Program-made: the position numbers and the translations under genes | NCBI GenBank assembly: GCA_026395915.1 | Contig: JAPLXU010000019.1 | Location: 1 to 40,404, forward strand | Direction: 5' to 3' | From: Candidatus Nomurabacteria bacterium | Lineage (GTDB): Bacteria > Patescibacteriota > Minisyncoccia > Phycocordibacterales > UBA9973 | Length of the DNA: 40,404 bases | Shown: positions 1-35,303 of the stretch, piece by piece | Numbering within the stretch: position 1 is the stretch's first letter | Layout: each line of letters opens with the position of its first letter | The notes under the pieces: model-generated | The model's input: the letters and a program-made list of their open reading frames with translations, nothing else | The model's database searches: none | What the model was told of the DNA's origin: nothing

Positions 1-19
1 GTCGGTAATATTGAACAAA

Positions 20-1585
20 ATGAATAATCAAACCAAAAAGTTTTTCATATATACTCGCAAGTCCACAGACGACAAAGACAGACAAGTCCGCAGTATTTCT
101 GATCAACTTTCGGAATTAAAAGAGTTGGCGATAAAAGAAAGTTTGGAAATAATTGATGTCTTTGTCGAAAAGCAGACCGCCAAAATACCAGGCCGTCCGG
201 TGTTTAATGAAATGATAGAACGAATGGAAAAAGGCGAAGCACAAGGTATTTTGGCGTGGCATCCGGATAGACTTGCTCGCAACTCGGTAGATGGAGGAAA
301 AATAATCTACCTCGTAGATACCAAAGTTATTTTAGATTTAAAATTCTCAACTTTTTGGTTTGATCCCACACCGCAAGGAAAGTTCATGCTCTCAATAGCA
401 TTCTCGCAATCCAAGTATTATGTAGATAATTTGTCGGAGAATATTAAAAGAGGACATAGAAACAAACTTAAAGATGGAATCTGGCCTCGAAACGCTCCGA
501 TGGGATATTTAAATGATAGTGAGAAGAAAATTATCATTCCCGACCCCGAGCGTGCGCCATATATCAAAAAAGCGTTCGAGGCATATGCAAGTGGAAAATA
601 TACTCTCCGACAAATTAGAGATATAATAACTGGACTTGGATTGCGCTCAATGAAAAGTGAAGAACTTTCCGTGTCAGTAATGCACGAGATTTTACGAAAC
701 CCAATATTTTGCGGACTTATGCGGTATGGGGGTGAAATCCACGAAGGAAAGCACGAACCGATTATCACAAAGAAACTTTTTGACCAATGTCAGGAAGTGA
801 TGATGAGAAAATCCAAACCGAAAGAAACTGGCTTCAAAACATATTTATATAGAGGATTTTTCCGTTGCGGAGAATGTGGCTGTTTTATCACGACTGAAAC
901 ACAAAAAGGACACAATTATCTCCGCTGTACCAAACGGAAAAATCCTTGTGAGCAAAAATATGTTCGCGAGGAAATCATCACTTCACAAATTAAGGAAAAT
1001 ATACAAAAAATTTCTTTGCCGCTCGATTGGGCAAAATGGATGATTGAAGAAAACAAAAAGGATCAATCATCCGAAATCCAATCGAGCGAGATTTTTTCTC
1101 AATCGACCAAAGACGAAATTTCTCTTTTGGATTCTAAAATCGAGAAGCTGATGAATGCGTATTTAGAGAACGCACTTTCGCTTGAAGAATATCGGGATGC
1201 TAAAAGTGCGTTGGTTAACGCAAAACAGCTTCTCAAAGAGAAATTATCGTCTTTTGAGAAAAAATCTCATAATCGGTTCGAACTCACAGAAAAATTCTTA
1301 AAGGACAATATTACCAACGTGGAATTGGCAAACGAAAAAACAAATGAAGAAAATCTTCATTTGTTCCAAAAAGTCAGTTCGAACTTTAAAATTCACAATC
1401 GAACTGTACTTTTTGAGCCACGCGGAGCGTGGAAAATCTTGGCGGGGTTTGGGTTTGGCGGGAATTCAGCCCAATCATCGGCGCTTTGCGCCGACGCATT
1501 TTTTGGCGGGGATGCTCTAACCCAGAATTTGCGGAGCCGGCGAGATTCGAACTCGCGAGGGGGTTTAAATCCCCTGCATCTTTAG
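20..1585 (+). CDS. Large serine recombinase (resolvase/invertase superfamily)
   Basis: Site-specific DNA recombinase, predicted cytoplasmic. The N-terminal resolvase domain (about residues 8-150) has the catalytic serine in YTRKST (Ser15 counting from the ATG at 20). A recombinase domain follows (about 155-260), then a zinc-ribbon with CGEC and a second cysteine pair (about 280-320), then a long charged coiled-coil. An in-frame TTG at 11 is an alternative start; the window edge hides the upstream signal. The last ~55 codons look non-native: they cross two small palindromes (1418-1432, 1479-1493) and then read antisense through tRNA-Ser(GCT), giving RRDSNSRGG from the T-arm, before a TAG in the anticodon region. 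I infer an integrated element whose recombinase end abuts the tRNA 3' end. The family call is strong; the biological C-terminus is uncertain. Confidence 0.9.
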   Translation: MNNQTKKFFIYTRKSTDDKDRQVRSISDQLSELKELAIKESLEIIDVFVEKQTAKIPGRPVFNEMIERMEKGEAQGILAWHPDRLARNSVDGGKIIYLVDTKVILDLKFSTFWFDPTPQGKFMLSIAFSQSKYYVDNLSENIKRGHRNKLKDGIWPRNAPMGYLNDSEKKIIIPDPERAPYIKKAFEAYASGKYTLRQIRDIITGLGLRSMKSEELSVSVMHEILRNPIFCGLMRYGGEIHEGKHEPIITKKLFDQCQEVMMRKSKPKETGFKTYLYRGFFRCGECGCFITTETQKGHNYLRCTKRKNPCEQKYVREEIITSQIKENIQKISLPLDWAKWMIEENKKDQSSEIQSSEIFSQSTKDEISLLDSKIEKLMNAYLENALSLEEYRDAKSALVNAKQLLKEKLSSFEKKSHNRFELTEKFLKDNITNVELANEKTNEENLHLFQKVSSNFKIHNRTVLFEPRGAWKILAGFGFGGNSAQSSALCADAFFGGDALTQNLRSRRDSNSRGGLNPLHL

Positions 1586-3141: not shown

Positions 3142-5502
3142 ATGCAATTGCAAGACAAACTGGAGGAAAAATTCCGTTTGGATATTAACCAAAAAAGGGC
3201 CTTAAATAGACTCAAGCTTTTTTCTGTTTCAGATCTGCTCTTTCACTTCCCTGTCAGATATAGCGACATAAGCGAGGTAAAAAAAATTATAGACCTAGTT
3301 CCCGGAGATACAGCAACCGTGTATGGAAAAGTTTCAGATTTGAAAACCAAAAAGGGCTTCCGTTCAAAAGTTCCCATGGCAGAGGGCAAGATCGAAGATC
3401 TGTCCGGCAAAATAAAAATAATTTGGTTCAATCAAGCCTATCTGGCAAAAATGATCCACGAAGGCGACAGCGTGAAATTGACAGGCAAAGTGACAAAGAA
3501 CAAAAGTGGAATTTATTTAGCAAATCCAGAATTTGAGAAGATGCCGAATATGCCGATAGATTCTCATGATAGTCTTTTTAAAACCTCACCCCAGCCCTCT
3601 CCTGAAAGGAGAGGGAGCGAATCCTCCTCCCCCTTCGGGGGAGGTCTGGAGAGGGTTGGATTTTCATATCCCGTTTACGCTGAAACTCGCGGAATAACTT
3701 CAAAATGGTTTTATCACGCAATAGAAAAAATACTTAGAGATAAAACTTTGGACAATATAGTAGATTATGTCCCGGCTGATATTTTGAAAAAATACAACTT
3801 ACCGACTTTGAAAACCGCGCTCATTTGGATTCATAAACCGAAAAATAAAGACGACGCCGAATCGGCGCGCAAAAGATTCGCTTTTGAAGAAGTTTTTTGC
3901 ATTCAACTCGAACGCCAGCATGACAAATTCGAATACAGAAAAAATAAATCTTTCCAAATAAAAACAACGGAAAAAGAAGTGGAAGAATTTCTGCAAAGGT
4001 TTCCTTTCAATGCCACCAATTCGCAAAAAAAATCTATCGAAACGATTTTGAGCAATATGGCAAAAACTTTTCCAATGTCCCGACTGCTCGAAGGCGACGT
4101 CGGCTCCGGCAAGACTGCTGTAGCCGCAACAGCAGCGTATGCCGTAGTAAATACTAGACCTCCGAAAAATTCTGTGGAGGACGGTCCTTCACAAACATTT
4201 GGCAATTTACAAGTCGCCTACATGGCGCCGACAGAAATTTTGGCGACTCAACATTTTGAATCTTTTATAGAGTATTTTGCACCCCGACGTGACGTCGGGG
4301 CAGGTCTGCCTATAAATATCGGGCTAATTACCGGATCCGGCTGTAGAAAGTTTCCTTCAAAATTAAATCCAACCGGATGGACAACAATTTCCCGAGCGCA
4401 ACTTTTAAAATGGGTGGCAAATGGAGAAATACCGATTTTGATAGGTACTCACGCTCTCATTCAAAAATCTGTGAAATTCAAAAACTTGGCGCTCGTCGTG
4501 ATTGATGAACAACATCGATTCGGCACGGCACAAAGAAGAAAACTTGTCCGCAAAGACAACATCGCCCCGCACTTGCTTTCGATGACAGCCACCCCCATCC
4601 CCCGCACTCTCGCCCTTACCATTTATGGAGACCTCGATCTTTCGCTTCTCGACGAAATGCCCGCCGGCAGAAAACAAATAATCACAGAAATCGTAACGCC
4701 AAACAAAAGAGAGCAAACTTACGAGCAGATACGACAAGAATTGAAAAATGGTAGACAGCTCTATGTGATCTGCCCGAGAATTTTTGAAGCAGAGGAAGCC
4801 CCAGCAGAATTTCCTTCGCGGGGTCTCTCGCAGGGCGACGGCCCGAGAGTGAGCGCTCGGCTAGCAAGCCGAGACAGCGACCCCGCGAAGGAATATTCTG
4901 CTGGGGCGAAACTTGAAATGAAAGCAGTCACGACAGAAGCTAAGCGTCTAAAAAAAGAAATCTTCCAAGAATACGAAATTGGCGTGCTTCATAGCAAAAT
5001 GTCCAAAGAAAAAAAAGAAGAAGTGATGCAAAAATTTTCATCGGGAGAAATAAACATTCTCTGCGCGACTTCCGTGGTGGAAGTCGGAGTGAATGTCCAA
5101 AATGCAACGATGATAATCATCGAGGGCGCGGAACGTTTCGGCTTGGCGCAACTCCACCAGCTTCGCGGACGCGTTATCAGAAGTTCGCATCAAGCTTACT
5201 GTTTTATTTTTGCCGAAGCAAAAAGCGAAAAAACCATAGCTCGTCTGAAAGCGTTAAAAACCGCCAAGAATGGTTTTGAATTGGCAGAACTCGATCTCAC
5301 TTTGCGTGGCGCAGGCGAACTCGGAGGCACAAAACAGTGGGGCATCACCGACCTCGGCATGGAAGCGATAAAAAATATAAAAATGGTTGAAGCTGCGAGA
5401 ACCGAGGCCATCCGTTTGATCGAAGAAGATCCCGAACTTGCCAAGTATCCCCTCTTGAAACAGAAGGTCCATCAAAAAGCTGGCGAGTTTCATTTTGAAT
5501 AA
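3142..5502 (+). CDS. recG: ATP-dependent DNA helicase RecG
   Basis: Remodels stalled forks and Holliday junctions. An N-terminal wedge/OB region (about 1-150) is followed by helicase motifs: Walker A GDVGSGKT (about 320), APTEILA, DEQHRFG (motif II), SMTATPIPRT (motif III), then the second RecA domain with TSVVEVGVNV and QLHQLRGRV. The C-terminus ends in FHFE. At 786 aa it is ~95 aa longer than typical RecG. The surplus sits in four palindromic inserts (about 3581-3663, 4157-4189, 4282-4300, 4798-4907), all in frame and all in linkers between conserved motifs. Every catalytic motif is intact, so the protein is probably functional. TATAAT at 3130-3135 and the lack of an SD suggest a leaderless mRNA. 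Confidence 0.95.
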   Translation: MQLQDKLEEKFRLDINQKRALNRLKLFSVSDLLFHFPVRYSDISEVKKIIDLVPGDTATVYGKVSDLKTKKGFRSKVPMAEGKIEDLSGKIKIIWFNQAYLAKMIHEGDSVKLTGKVTKNKSGIYLANPEFEKMPNMPIDSHDSLFKTSPQPSPERRGSESSSPFGGGLERVGFSYPVYAETRGITSKWFYHAIEKILRDKTLDNIVDYVPADILKKYNLPTLKTALIWIHKPKNKDDAESARKRFAFEEVFCIQLERQHDKFEYRKNKSFQIKTTEKEVEEFLQRFPFNATNSQKKSIETILSNMAKTFPMSRLLEGDVGSGKTAVAATAAYAVVNTRPPKNSVEDGPSQTFGNLQVAYMAPTEILATQHFESFIEYFAPRRDVGAGLPINIGLITGSGCRKFPSKLNPTGWTTISRAQLLKWVANGEIPILIGTHALIQKSVKFKNLALVVIDEQHRFGTAQRRKLVRKDNIAPHLLSMTATPIPRTLALTIYGDLDLSLLDEMPAGRKQIITEIVTPNKREQTYEQIRQELKNGRQLYVICPRIFEAEEAPAEFPSRGLSQGDGPRVSARLASRDSDPAKEYSAGAKLEMKAVTTEAKRLKKEIFQEYEIGVLHSKMSKEKKEEVMQKFSSGEINILCATSVVEVGVNVQNATMIIIEGAERFGLAQLHQLRGRVIRSSHQAYCFIFAEAKSEKTIARLKALKTAKNGFELAELDLTLRGAGELGGTKQWGITDLGMEAIKNIKMVEAARTEAIRLIEEDPELAKYPLLKQKVHQKAGEFHFE
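3581..3663. repeat. Palindromic repeat inserted in frame in recG (family b)
   Basis: About 84 bp encoding a low-complexity Pro/Ser/Gly/Arg peptide between the RecG wedge domain and SYPVYAE. It contains the hairpins CTCTCC-TGAA-GGAGAG and CCTCCCCC-TTC-GGGGGAGG. Its first ~33 bases nearly match the repeat at 18441-18474 beside the DUF559 gene. The length is a multiple of three and it has no stop in this frame. Confidence 0.85.
4157..4189. repeat. Small palindrome inserted in recG (near Walker A)
   Basis: An imperfect inverted repeat (GACCTCC...GGAGGAC) ends in AGGACGGTCCTT, a motif shared with the palindrome at 27543-27582. It encodes extra residues between AAYAVV and LQVAYMAPTEILA, where RecG normally has only a short link. 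Confidence 0.6.
4282..4300. repeat. CCCCGACGT palindrome inside recG
   Basis: Perfect 9-bp arms (CCCCGACGT/ACGTCGGGG) around one base. It encodes part of the insert APRRDVGAGLP between the FESFIEYF helix and INIGLITGS. Confidence 0.65.
4798..4907. repeat. 110-bp nested palindrome inserted in frame in recG
   Basis: The outer arms (4798-4825 and 4879-4907) are 28-29 nt and complementary except for one extra base. Two inner stem-loops (CTCTCG/CGAGAG and CTCGGCT/AGCCGAG) would make a three-way junction. It encodes the extra segment after YVICPRIFEAEE in the second RecA domain, and the frame is kept. Confidence 0.85.
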
Positions 5503-17961: not shown

Positions 17962-18077
17962 ACCTCATCCCCTGCCTTCCCCTGAAAGGGGAAGGGGTTA
18001 AATTCCTCCTCTCCTTCCAGGAGAGGATTTGAGGTGAGGTTTCTCCCTCTCCTTAGAGGAGAGGGTCGGGATGAGGT
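17962..18077. repeat. Nested palindromes upstream of the DUF559 gene (family b)
   Basis: The outer arms ACCTCATCCC (17962-17971) and GGGATGAGGT (18068-18077) are perfect complements. Inside are three hairpins: CTTCCCCT-GAA-AGGGGAAG, CTCTCCT-TCC-AGGAGAG and CCTCTCC-TTAGA-GGAGAGG. The DUF559 -10 box (18079-18084) starts immediately after. Confidence 0.9.
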
Positions 18078-18090
18078 GTATAATTGTACT

Positions 18091-18480
18091 ATGCGAAGAA
18101 TAGTAAACAACTTTTTAAGAAAAGAGGTCAGAAAAGAATTACGAAAAAATCAAACTCCGCAAGAAATAATCTTGTGGTCAAAAATTCGCAATAATCAAAC
18201 AAAACAAAAATGGAAGAGACAGGTCAGTATTGGTCCATATATTGCTGATTTTTATTGTTCAAAAAAACTTTTGGTTATCGAAATAGATGGCTCTCAGCAT
18301 TTGGACAACAAAAAATACGACAAGGAAAGGGGAAAATATTTTTTGAACCTTGGCATTCAGACCATAAGATTTTGGAATAACGAAATAAATACAAATATAG
18401 ACGGAGTAGTAAAAATAATTACGGAAAAATTGGAATTACAACCTCACCCTAGCCCTCTCCTGAAAGGAGAAGGGAAATAA
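18091..18480 (+). CDS. DUF559 (VSR-like) endonuclease-domain protein
   Basis: 129 aa. It has the DUF559/PD-(D/E)xK-like pattern LWSKIRNN, KWKRQVSIGPYIADFYC, LLVIEIDGSQH and IQTIRFWNNEI, with catalytic-type acids in ADFYC and EIDG. The fold is that of Vsr-type mismatch nucleases and homing-like nucleases; the activity is unproven. The last ~13 residues (QPHPSPLLKGEGK) are translated from the flanking palindrome. TATAAT (18079-18084) ends 6 nt before the ATG, predicting a leaderless mRNA starting at the edge of the upstream palindrome. An earlier start at 18034 is rejected because it lies inside the repeat. It is opposite in strand to both neighbours, fitting an inserted unit. Confidence 0.8.
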   Translation: MRRIVNNFLRKEVRKELRKNQTPQEIILWSKIRNNQTKQKWKRQVSIGPYIADFYCSKKLLVIEIDGSQHLDNKKYDKERGKYFLNLGIQTIRFWNNEINTNIDGVVKIITEKLELQPHPSPLLKGEGK

Positions 18481-18562
18481 ACTCAAAATTCTTTGATCCC
18501 CCCTCCTCTCCTTTCAGGAGAGGATTTGAGGTGAGGTGTATTGGTATAGATCAGGATGAGGT
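18441..18562. repeat. Palindromes overlapping and following the DUF559 gene (family b)
   Basis: ACCTCACCC followed by CTCTCC-TGAA-GGAGAA (overlapping the end of the gene), then CTCTCC-TTTC-AGGAGAG, GAGGTGAGGTGTA and GGATGAGGT. The last motif runs into the stop codon of the ATPase gene at 18562. The GAGGT ends match those upstream of DUF559. Confidence 0.88.
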
Positions 18563-35243: not shown

Positions 35244-35261
35244 GTGATTTATTTACCCCCT

Positions 35262-35302
35262 CCTTACTCCTCCCCCTACATAGGGGGAGGCTGGGTAGGG
35301 GT
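35262..35302. repeat. Palindrome between rplD and rplW (family b-like)
   Basis: CCTCCCCCTA-CA-TAGGGGGAGG (10-bp arms) nested inside TACCCC...GGGGTA. The composition and CCTCCCC core resemble the palindromes beside the DUF559 gene and inside recG. Confidence 0.8.
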
Positions 35303-35303
35303 A

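Follow-up and report, generated by a model that had tools for sequence, protein, structure and literature searches.

A lone DUF559 nuclease gene between inverted palindromes: a probable autonomous unit of a widespread palindrome-ended family

The window analysed here, a stretch of 40,404 nucleotides from a Candidatus Nomurabacteria genome, carries a unit in which a small DUF559 nuclease gene is enclosed by inverted palindromes. The unit probably belongs, as an autonomous member, to a widespread family of mobile elements with palindromic ends, and the DUF559 nuclease is probably its dedicated enzyme; movement by the nuclease is inferred. The architecture of the unit, the generality of the arrangement, the co-diversification of nuclease and palindrome, the dependence of palindrome copy number on the nuclease, the presence or absence of the elements at several sites and their in-frame insertion into genes were all observed. 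Catalysis of movement by the nuclease, hairpin recognition and the repair step remain inferences.

Architecture of the unit

The two neighbours of the unit are minus-strand genes: a TraG/DUF87-like gene, which faces it with its 3' end, and an adenylate-kinase-like gene, which faces it with its 5' end (names read from the sequence). Its parts, together with two solo palindromes elsewhere in the window, are as follows.

17962..18562, plus strand: whole unit, inverted palindromic ends and DUF559 gene, an insertion of about 600 bp
17962..18040: left double-hairpin element ACCTCATCCCC...GGTGAGGT, fold z = -3.6
18041..18077: inner left hairpin CCCTCTCCTTAGAGGAGAGGG with tail GGATGAGGT
18079..18084, plus strand: TATAAT, a -10-like box beginning one base past the upstream GAGGT end
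18091..18480, plus strand: DUF559 nuclease gene, 129 aa
18441..18562: right composite palindrome ACCTCACCCTAG...GAGGTGAGGT...GGATGAGGT, fold z = -4.7
3583..3657, plus strand: window-family solo palindrome inserted in-frame in recG; many congeners lack it
35254..35303: rplW-rplD intergenic solo palindrome with TACCCC...GGGGTA ends, of another family; its match is with the ends of a different DUF559 subtype

An earlier note on this DNA had described a 390-bp DUF559 gene standing alone on the plus strand among minus-strand genes, with palindromes on both sides, a -10 box abutting the upstream palindrome and about 13 final codons made of the downstream one. All of this was borne out; the last 12–13 codons (PHPSPLLKGEGK) are encoded by the first part of the right palindrome, and the abutment of TATAAT and palindrome recurs in the relatives L029, L030 and L038. 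The flanking palindromes have a common ACCTCA/TGAGGT tail and CCTCTCC...GGAGAGG stems, arranged as inverted hairpin pairs, and terminal inverted repeats, a criterion for MITE and IS elements, are present. The z values given above come from DNA folding of the two composite flanks. The window contains six matches to the pattern CCTCYCC-N(2-10)-GGRGAGG, and 100 dinucleotide shuffles contained none. The left double-hairpin has the architecture of solo copies elsewhere in the genome, such as L006. A scan of the unit against Rfam returned no family above its gathering score, only chance-like matches to microRNA hairpins. At the left edge of the window (11-1585) there is a serine-recombinase-like gene.

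The DUF559 protein

The encoded protein is almost wholly DUF559 (PF04480; Pfam E=1.8e-30, 105 bits against a curated cut-off of 20.6), and its only other Pfam match is a sub-threshold one to MTES_1575. By Pfam, and by its Vsr-like fold, it has no HUH (Y1) tyrosine transposase domain. An AF2 model (pLDDT 85) aligns best with 3HRL (Z 15.3), with 3R3P, the homing endonuclease I-Bth0305I (Z 12.6), and with Vsr (1CW0, Z 10.6); profile matches in the PDB are to 3HRL (1e-28) and I-Bth0305I (1e-4). Residues E25, D53, E64, H70 and D77 are invariant across 39 homologues. The protein thus meets the description of a PD-(D/E)XK nuclease, with a Vsr/EDxHD-type fold and conserved acidic and histidine residues. 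No cytosine methylase was noticed beside the gene.

TnsA of Tn7 is likewise a PD-(D/E)XK nuclease serving transposition. It acts together with a DDE transposase, whereas there is no partner gene at the window unit. The fold match to TnsA (Z 7.5) was not used, being weak and within the range of common background. The E. coli DUF559 protein YcjD was classed, in 2005 at the latest, as a Vsr-related PD-(D/E)XK nuclease (PMC1189080).

Generality of the association

A search of 60 relatives in the genus provided 45 stand-alone DUF559 genes for flank analysis. Flanks were scored as inverted repeats when the two 200-nt flanks, one of them inverted, gave a local alignment score of at least 34. This was the case for 64% of the 45 genes, against 4% of GIY-YIG control genes, 1% of random positions in the same loci and none of the shuffled flanks. 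For 87% of the DUF559 genes there was a GC-rich hairpin no more than 200 nt away (GIY-YIG, 12%; random positions, 6%). The earlier note would have been refuted by DUF559 genes in relatives without nearby palindromes; by these two measures there are nearly none. A criterion of a single perfect hairpin overlooks units with interrupted palindromes (L049, L054, L056, L069, L070), which the inverted-flank test detects. Among DUF559-like proteins with weak profile matches, inverted flanks were mostly absent (11%, n=9).

A broader survey, limited to one genome per species, gave 80 loci spread over many phyla, and the inverted-flank test was passed by 42 of 79, compared with 0 of 220 random positions. 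Outside Patescibacteria, 77% of 31 DUF559 genes had inverted flanks or two-sided hairpins (random positions, 0%), and the taxa with palindrome-flanked genes include S. meliloti, Sphingomonas, Deinococcus, Azospirillum, N. gonorrhoeae and Picosynechococcus. The ends of Gammaproteobacterial units are the exact Box C/triplex-motif (TM) sequence. On plasmids of S. meliloti and Azospirillum the units are conserved in place and palindrome pieces are scattered; a Sinorhizobium palindrome query found 481 places across 157 records. A DUF559 gene on a P. aeruginosa plasmid (L252) had no palindromes, and phages yielded only three weak DUF559 matches. An Absconditabacterales DUF559 gene (L223) has an in-frame stop under table 11, which fits the expected TGA recoding.

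Dispersal and empty sites

The window's own genome (812 kb) contains three DUF559 genes at three loci, each bracketed by a separate palindrome family (GAGGT/CCTCTCC; CCACC/CCCCTCC; CAACCC/CCTTATCAGGGG). By pattern and similarity searches, the window family has roughly a dozen more solo copies elsewhere in this genome. Several are in-frame in housekeeping genes, namely recG and, as read from the flanking codons, apparent nifS-like, trigger factor and mnmA genes. The matching palindrome that the earlier note had placed inside recG is indeed of the same family and is an in-frame insertion. The palindrome it had called similar between rplD and rplW is present but belongs to another family, with TACCCC...GGGGTA ends and a CCTACAT loop; its counterpart is the DUF559 subtype of L049, L054 and L056.

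Alleles without the insertion, whose absence would have spoken against the unit, were found at the window locus, in leuS and in recG. At the window locus the unit is absent from congeners G014, G009, G019, G024, G018 and G062; in the last of these the two genes that neighbour the unit are adjacent. The empty locus carries a conserved promoter-like TTTTGCAAAA...TTTTTTCTGCTA directly after the DUF87 stop codon, and the alignment leaves 3-4 nt ambiguous at the insertion boundary. In G002 and G016 the same spot is held by other DUF559 subtypes. In leuS a complete DUF559 unit lies in-frame in 8 of 29 congeners and is absent from the others. In recG, palindromes of several families are inserted in-frame at one loop and are missing from many congeners. 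In-frame DUF559 units were also found in dnaE of a Rickettsiales genome and in hsdM of a Gammaproteobacterium.

Some further observations were made at these sites. In G013 (L307) a different solo palindrome, ACCCCGTCGTTCGCGAACGACGGGGT, sits just after the DUF87 stop codon, at the same hotspot. The leuS units of L106-L109, L112, L114, L115 and L133 are in-frame within the editing domain; leuS of L108 and L118 has an apparent alpha/beta-hydrolase (RBBP9-like) domain, and several leuS genes have a NUDIX-like domain. A second variable insertion in recG (L136-L165), of PSRGLSQGDGPRVSARLASRDSD type and located around residues 545-590 of the protein encoded in the window, is shared by about a dozen congeners and missing from others; it seems to belong to a different family of repeats. 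In the Rickettsiales genome (L200, MAG JANQNR010000003.1) the DUF559 unit is accompanied by further palindromes in-frame in DNA polymerase III alpha. This locus possibly links DUF559 units to the in-frame palindromic elements of Rickettsia (RPEs), for which, to our knowledge, no enzyme is known. RPEs are likewise short palindromes in-frame in unrelated housekeeping genes (PMC10969869).

Among 14 bounded elements, a small sample, no consistent target-site duplication was found, so that no canonical signature of transposition was seen. The one element with a long direct repeat around it is a solo palindrome in L006 (L006:1453-1555), which lies between GTTTGCTGA copies, near a tRNA-like sequence, and is the sole candidate for a target duplication.

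The distribution of the units bears on an alternative in which a free-standing EDxHD homing endonuclease cuts unoccupied alleles and the unit is copied by recombination, with the palindromes as borders or relics. DUF559/EDxHD enzymes are known homing endonucleases (PMC3943268; PMC9403480), and I-Bth0305I, among the closest solved relatives of the window protein, has the same nuclease fold and similar conserved residues. The leuS unit, at one fixed site in its eight carriers, would on its own satisfy confinement to a homologous site. Homing, however, holds an element at one such site, whereas a single genome here has three subtypes at three loci, with many loci across the genus, solo palindromes scattered in many unrelated genes and units in-frame in host genes, with neither intron nor intein noticed. 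The window protein also lacks the DNA-binding extension of I-Bth0305I-type enzymes, and its relatives are dispersed at non-homologous sites with palindromic ends. Homing is accordingly an unlikely account of the family.

Co-diversification and copy number

Nuclease and palindrome were compared in pairs of units from different genomes with non-homologous outer flanks, palindromic flanks being counted as alike at a score of at least 40. They were alike in 88% of pairs at protein identities of at least 75% (n=8), in 52% at 65-75%, in 16% at 55-65% and in at most 3% below 55%. Different DUF559 units within one genome had palindromes alike in only 5%, and flanks were more similar to those of the nearest protein elsewhere than to those of genome-mates (Wilcoxon p=9e-4, n=32). 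A Mantel test of nuclease against palindrome, in a stricter version that leaves out orthologous loci and was used in place of the first, gave r=0.225 (p=0.001). Every nuclease subtype comes with a palindrome family of its own, and the two co-diversify. Related nucleases at unrelated loci have palindromes in common and different subtypes in one genome do not; host kinship cannot explain this.

Palindromes with the CCTCTCC stem number a median of 10 in genomes with that stem in a DUF559 flank, 1.5 in those with other subtypes only and 1.0 in those without DUF559 (matching nuclease versus none, p=0.0005; versus other subtypes, p=0.08). A unit contributes only one to three copies, too few to account for the difference, and reversed-pattern controls are near zero. 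The earlier note had held that identical palindromes in genomes lacking any DUF559 gene would count against it. Such orphans exist in the genus, with up to 5 copies in a genome, which speaks against strict dependence, but they are few.

Comparison with RAYT/REP systems

The earlier note had inferred, by analogy with RAYT and REP, that the nuclease moves or maintains the palindromes. Association, co-diversification and empty sites support this, whereas catalysis by the nuclease stays an inference. The likeness to RAYT/REP (REPtron, TIRtron) lies in a lone small enzyme gene within inverted palindromes, solo copies, subtype matching and intragenic copies (PMC3733652). The enzyme there is an HUH tyrosine transposase, in contrast to the PD-(D/E)XK Vsr/EDxHD nuclease of DUF559 units. 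The ends differ as well: those of RAYT/REP are GTAG-tagged, a criterion that the window palindromes (ACCTCA/TGAGGT) do not meet, and other DUF559 units have other C-rich tails. With its enzyme gene inside its own repeat family and with solo copies, the DUF559 unit works like RAYT/REP but is not a member.

RAYT-type Y1_Tnp genes are common in the genus, and the window's own genome has 7 of RAYT/TIRYT type. A resident enzyme of this kind might then move the palindromes, with DUF559 as cargo kept for defence or repair, and the palindrome count does track the Y1 count (rho 0.46). This correlation falls to a partial 0.21 after DUF559, against a partial 0.41 for the DUF559 count after allowing for Y1. 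Of 40 Y1 genes examined, 30% had their own inverted flanks, whose sequence bears no relation to the DUF559 palindromes, and a CCTCYCC palindrome lay within 250 nt of one of them, compared with 22 of 45 DUF559 genes (p=9e-7). Co-diversification with the ends is not what one would expect of cargo, and the association of DUF559 and palindrome holds across phyla. That the nuclease is a mere passenger is thus very improbable. Some Y1_Tnp loci, L328-L334 and others, have terminal repeats of their own, such as TACGGAGGCATTGCCTCCGTA.

Box C repeats and ycjD in E. coli

Box C was found in 5359 of 5426 E. coli genomes, at a median of 16 places, and a 2015 survey of Box C/TM repeats never found mobility genes near them (PMC4666352). 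These sequences, so far characterised merely as repeats, share the architecture of the DUF559 ends (for example CCCTCTCCC..GGGAGAGGGTTAGGGTGAGGG, exactly as Gammaproteobacterial units end). The window family and the Gammaproteobacterial unit ends both meet the Box C/TM definition of a hairpin CCCTCTCC..GGAGAGGG with a GGGTGAGG third strand. The DUF559 gene ycjD is present in 3365 E. coli genomes (62%) at a single fixed place between sapF and fabI, with one Box C copy and degenerate copies immediately downstream. Its fixed locus makes it look resident, and E. coli looks like a case of one resident nuclease gene with old repeats.

Two candidate empty sites in E. coli were set aside as not clean. 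Strains lacking ycjD have an efflux operon there in the genomes opened, an operon named eefRABCD (PMC12817139). The Box C polymorphism between mrcB and hrpB combines an internal 64-nt collapse with a divergent shorter allele; in L246, L264 and L266 it was seen that in some strains a 64-nt deletion between two Box C hairpins leaves one hairpin. In Klebsiella pneumoniae, between cysP and a Dyp peroxidase gene (L255), a decayed DUF559 gene with stops lies beside Box C copies and is probably the relic of a DUF559 unit.

Another possibility is that the palindromes spread by replication slippage and template switching, and that a Vsr-like DUF559 protein tolerates or trims them. The 64-nt collapse at mrcB-hrpB is in keeping with this, as are the ties of triplex repeats to instability (PMC4666352) and the finding that the Caulobacter DUF559 protein VsrA damages DNA when a cytosine methylase is missing (PMC12907096). 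A role in repair or maintenance has little chance of being the explanation, for it leaves unexplained the position of the gene between matched inverted palindromes at many loci, the in-frame units in leuS, dnaE and hsdM, and the subtype matching. It is scarcely credible that the palindromes are terminators or REP-like clutter at gene ends beside an unrelated orphan nuclease: many are intergenic and GC-rich hairpins can act as terminators, but matched inverted flanks almost never occur at control genes or random positions, and palindromes in-frame inside genes exclude a terminator role at those sites.

Proposed mechanism and significance

In the preferred reading, that of an autonomous mobile unit with a dedicated nuclease, the DUF559 protein would recognise the terminal palindrome of its own family, that is the ACCTCA/TGAGGT tail with a GC-rich hairpin, probably as an extruded or single-stranded hairpin. 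Cuts by the nuclease at the palindrome end and in the target would follow, and the insertion would be completed by replication or repair in the host. The gene flanked by an inverted pair of palindromes would constitute an autonomous unit, and inverted palindromes without the gene would be non-autonomous solo copies, the Box C/triplex-motif repeats. That no consistent target duplication was seen would fit a nuclease whose insertions are finished by the host, with the caveat of the small sample. Against this reading count the lack of biochemical or genetic evidence, the lack of a canonical transposition signature, the orphan palindromes in genomes without DUF559, and the near-universal Box C of E. 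coli set against the 62% of genomes with ycjD. The fixed, resident-looking locus of ycjD, the unclean shorter alleles at mrcB-hrpB and the correlation of palindrome and Y1 counts weigh against it too.

A link between DUF559 and palindromes was not found in the open PMC literature; most subscription papers and preprints were outside the scope of the search, and an earlier description is possible. The arrangement appears to be of the RAYT/REP kind with an unrelated enzyme, and the class itself would be new if the nuclease were shown to be the mover. Tentatively, and with somewhat less than even confidence, the units can be seen as a new class of mobile element, in which a lone Vsr/EDxHD nuclease, with neither a transposase nor an integrase or intron to help it, moves palindromic and possibly triplex-forming ends of its own to many sites, even in-frame in essential genes, and as the origin of the Box C/TM repeats that hundreds of bacterial genomes contain, that of E. 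coli among them.

The Box C repeats of E. coli had so far been without an associated enzyme. DUF559 is a specific candidate partner, in E. coli K-12 through the product of ycjD and in other organisms through their own DUF559 genes. DUF559 units represent a second, unrelated solution to the problem solved by RAYT/REP, and they are a likely reason for the short 'PSP..EGEG'-type insertions in some conserved proteins. If the nuclease is the mover, it would be a very small DNA-mobilising enzyme (~110-130 aa) whose recognition of ends has diversified many times.
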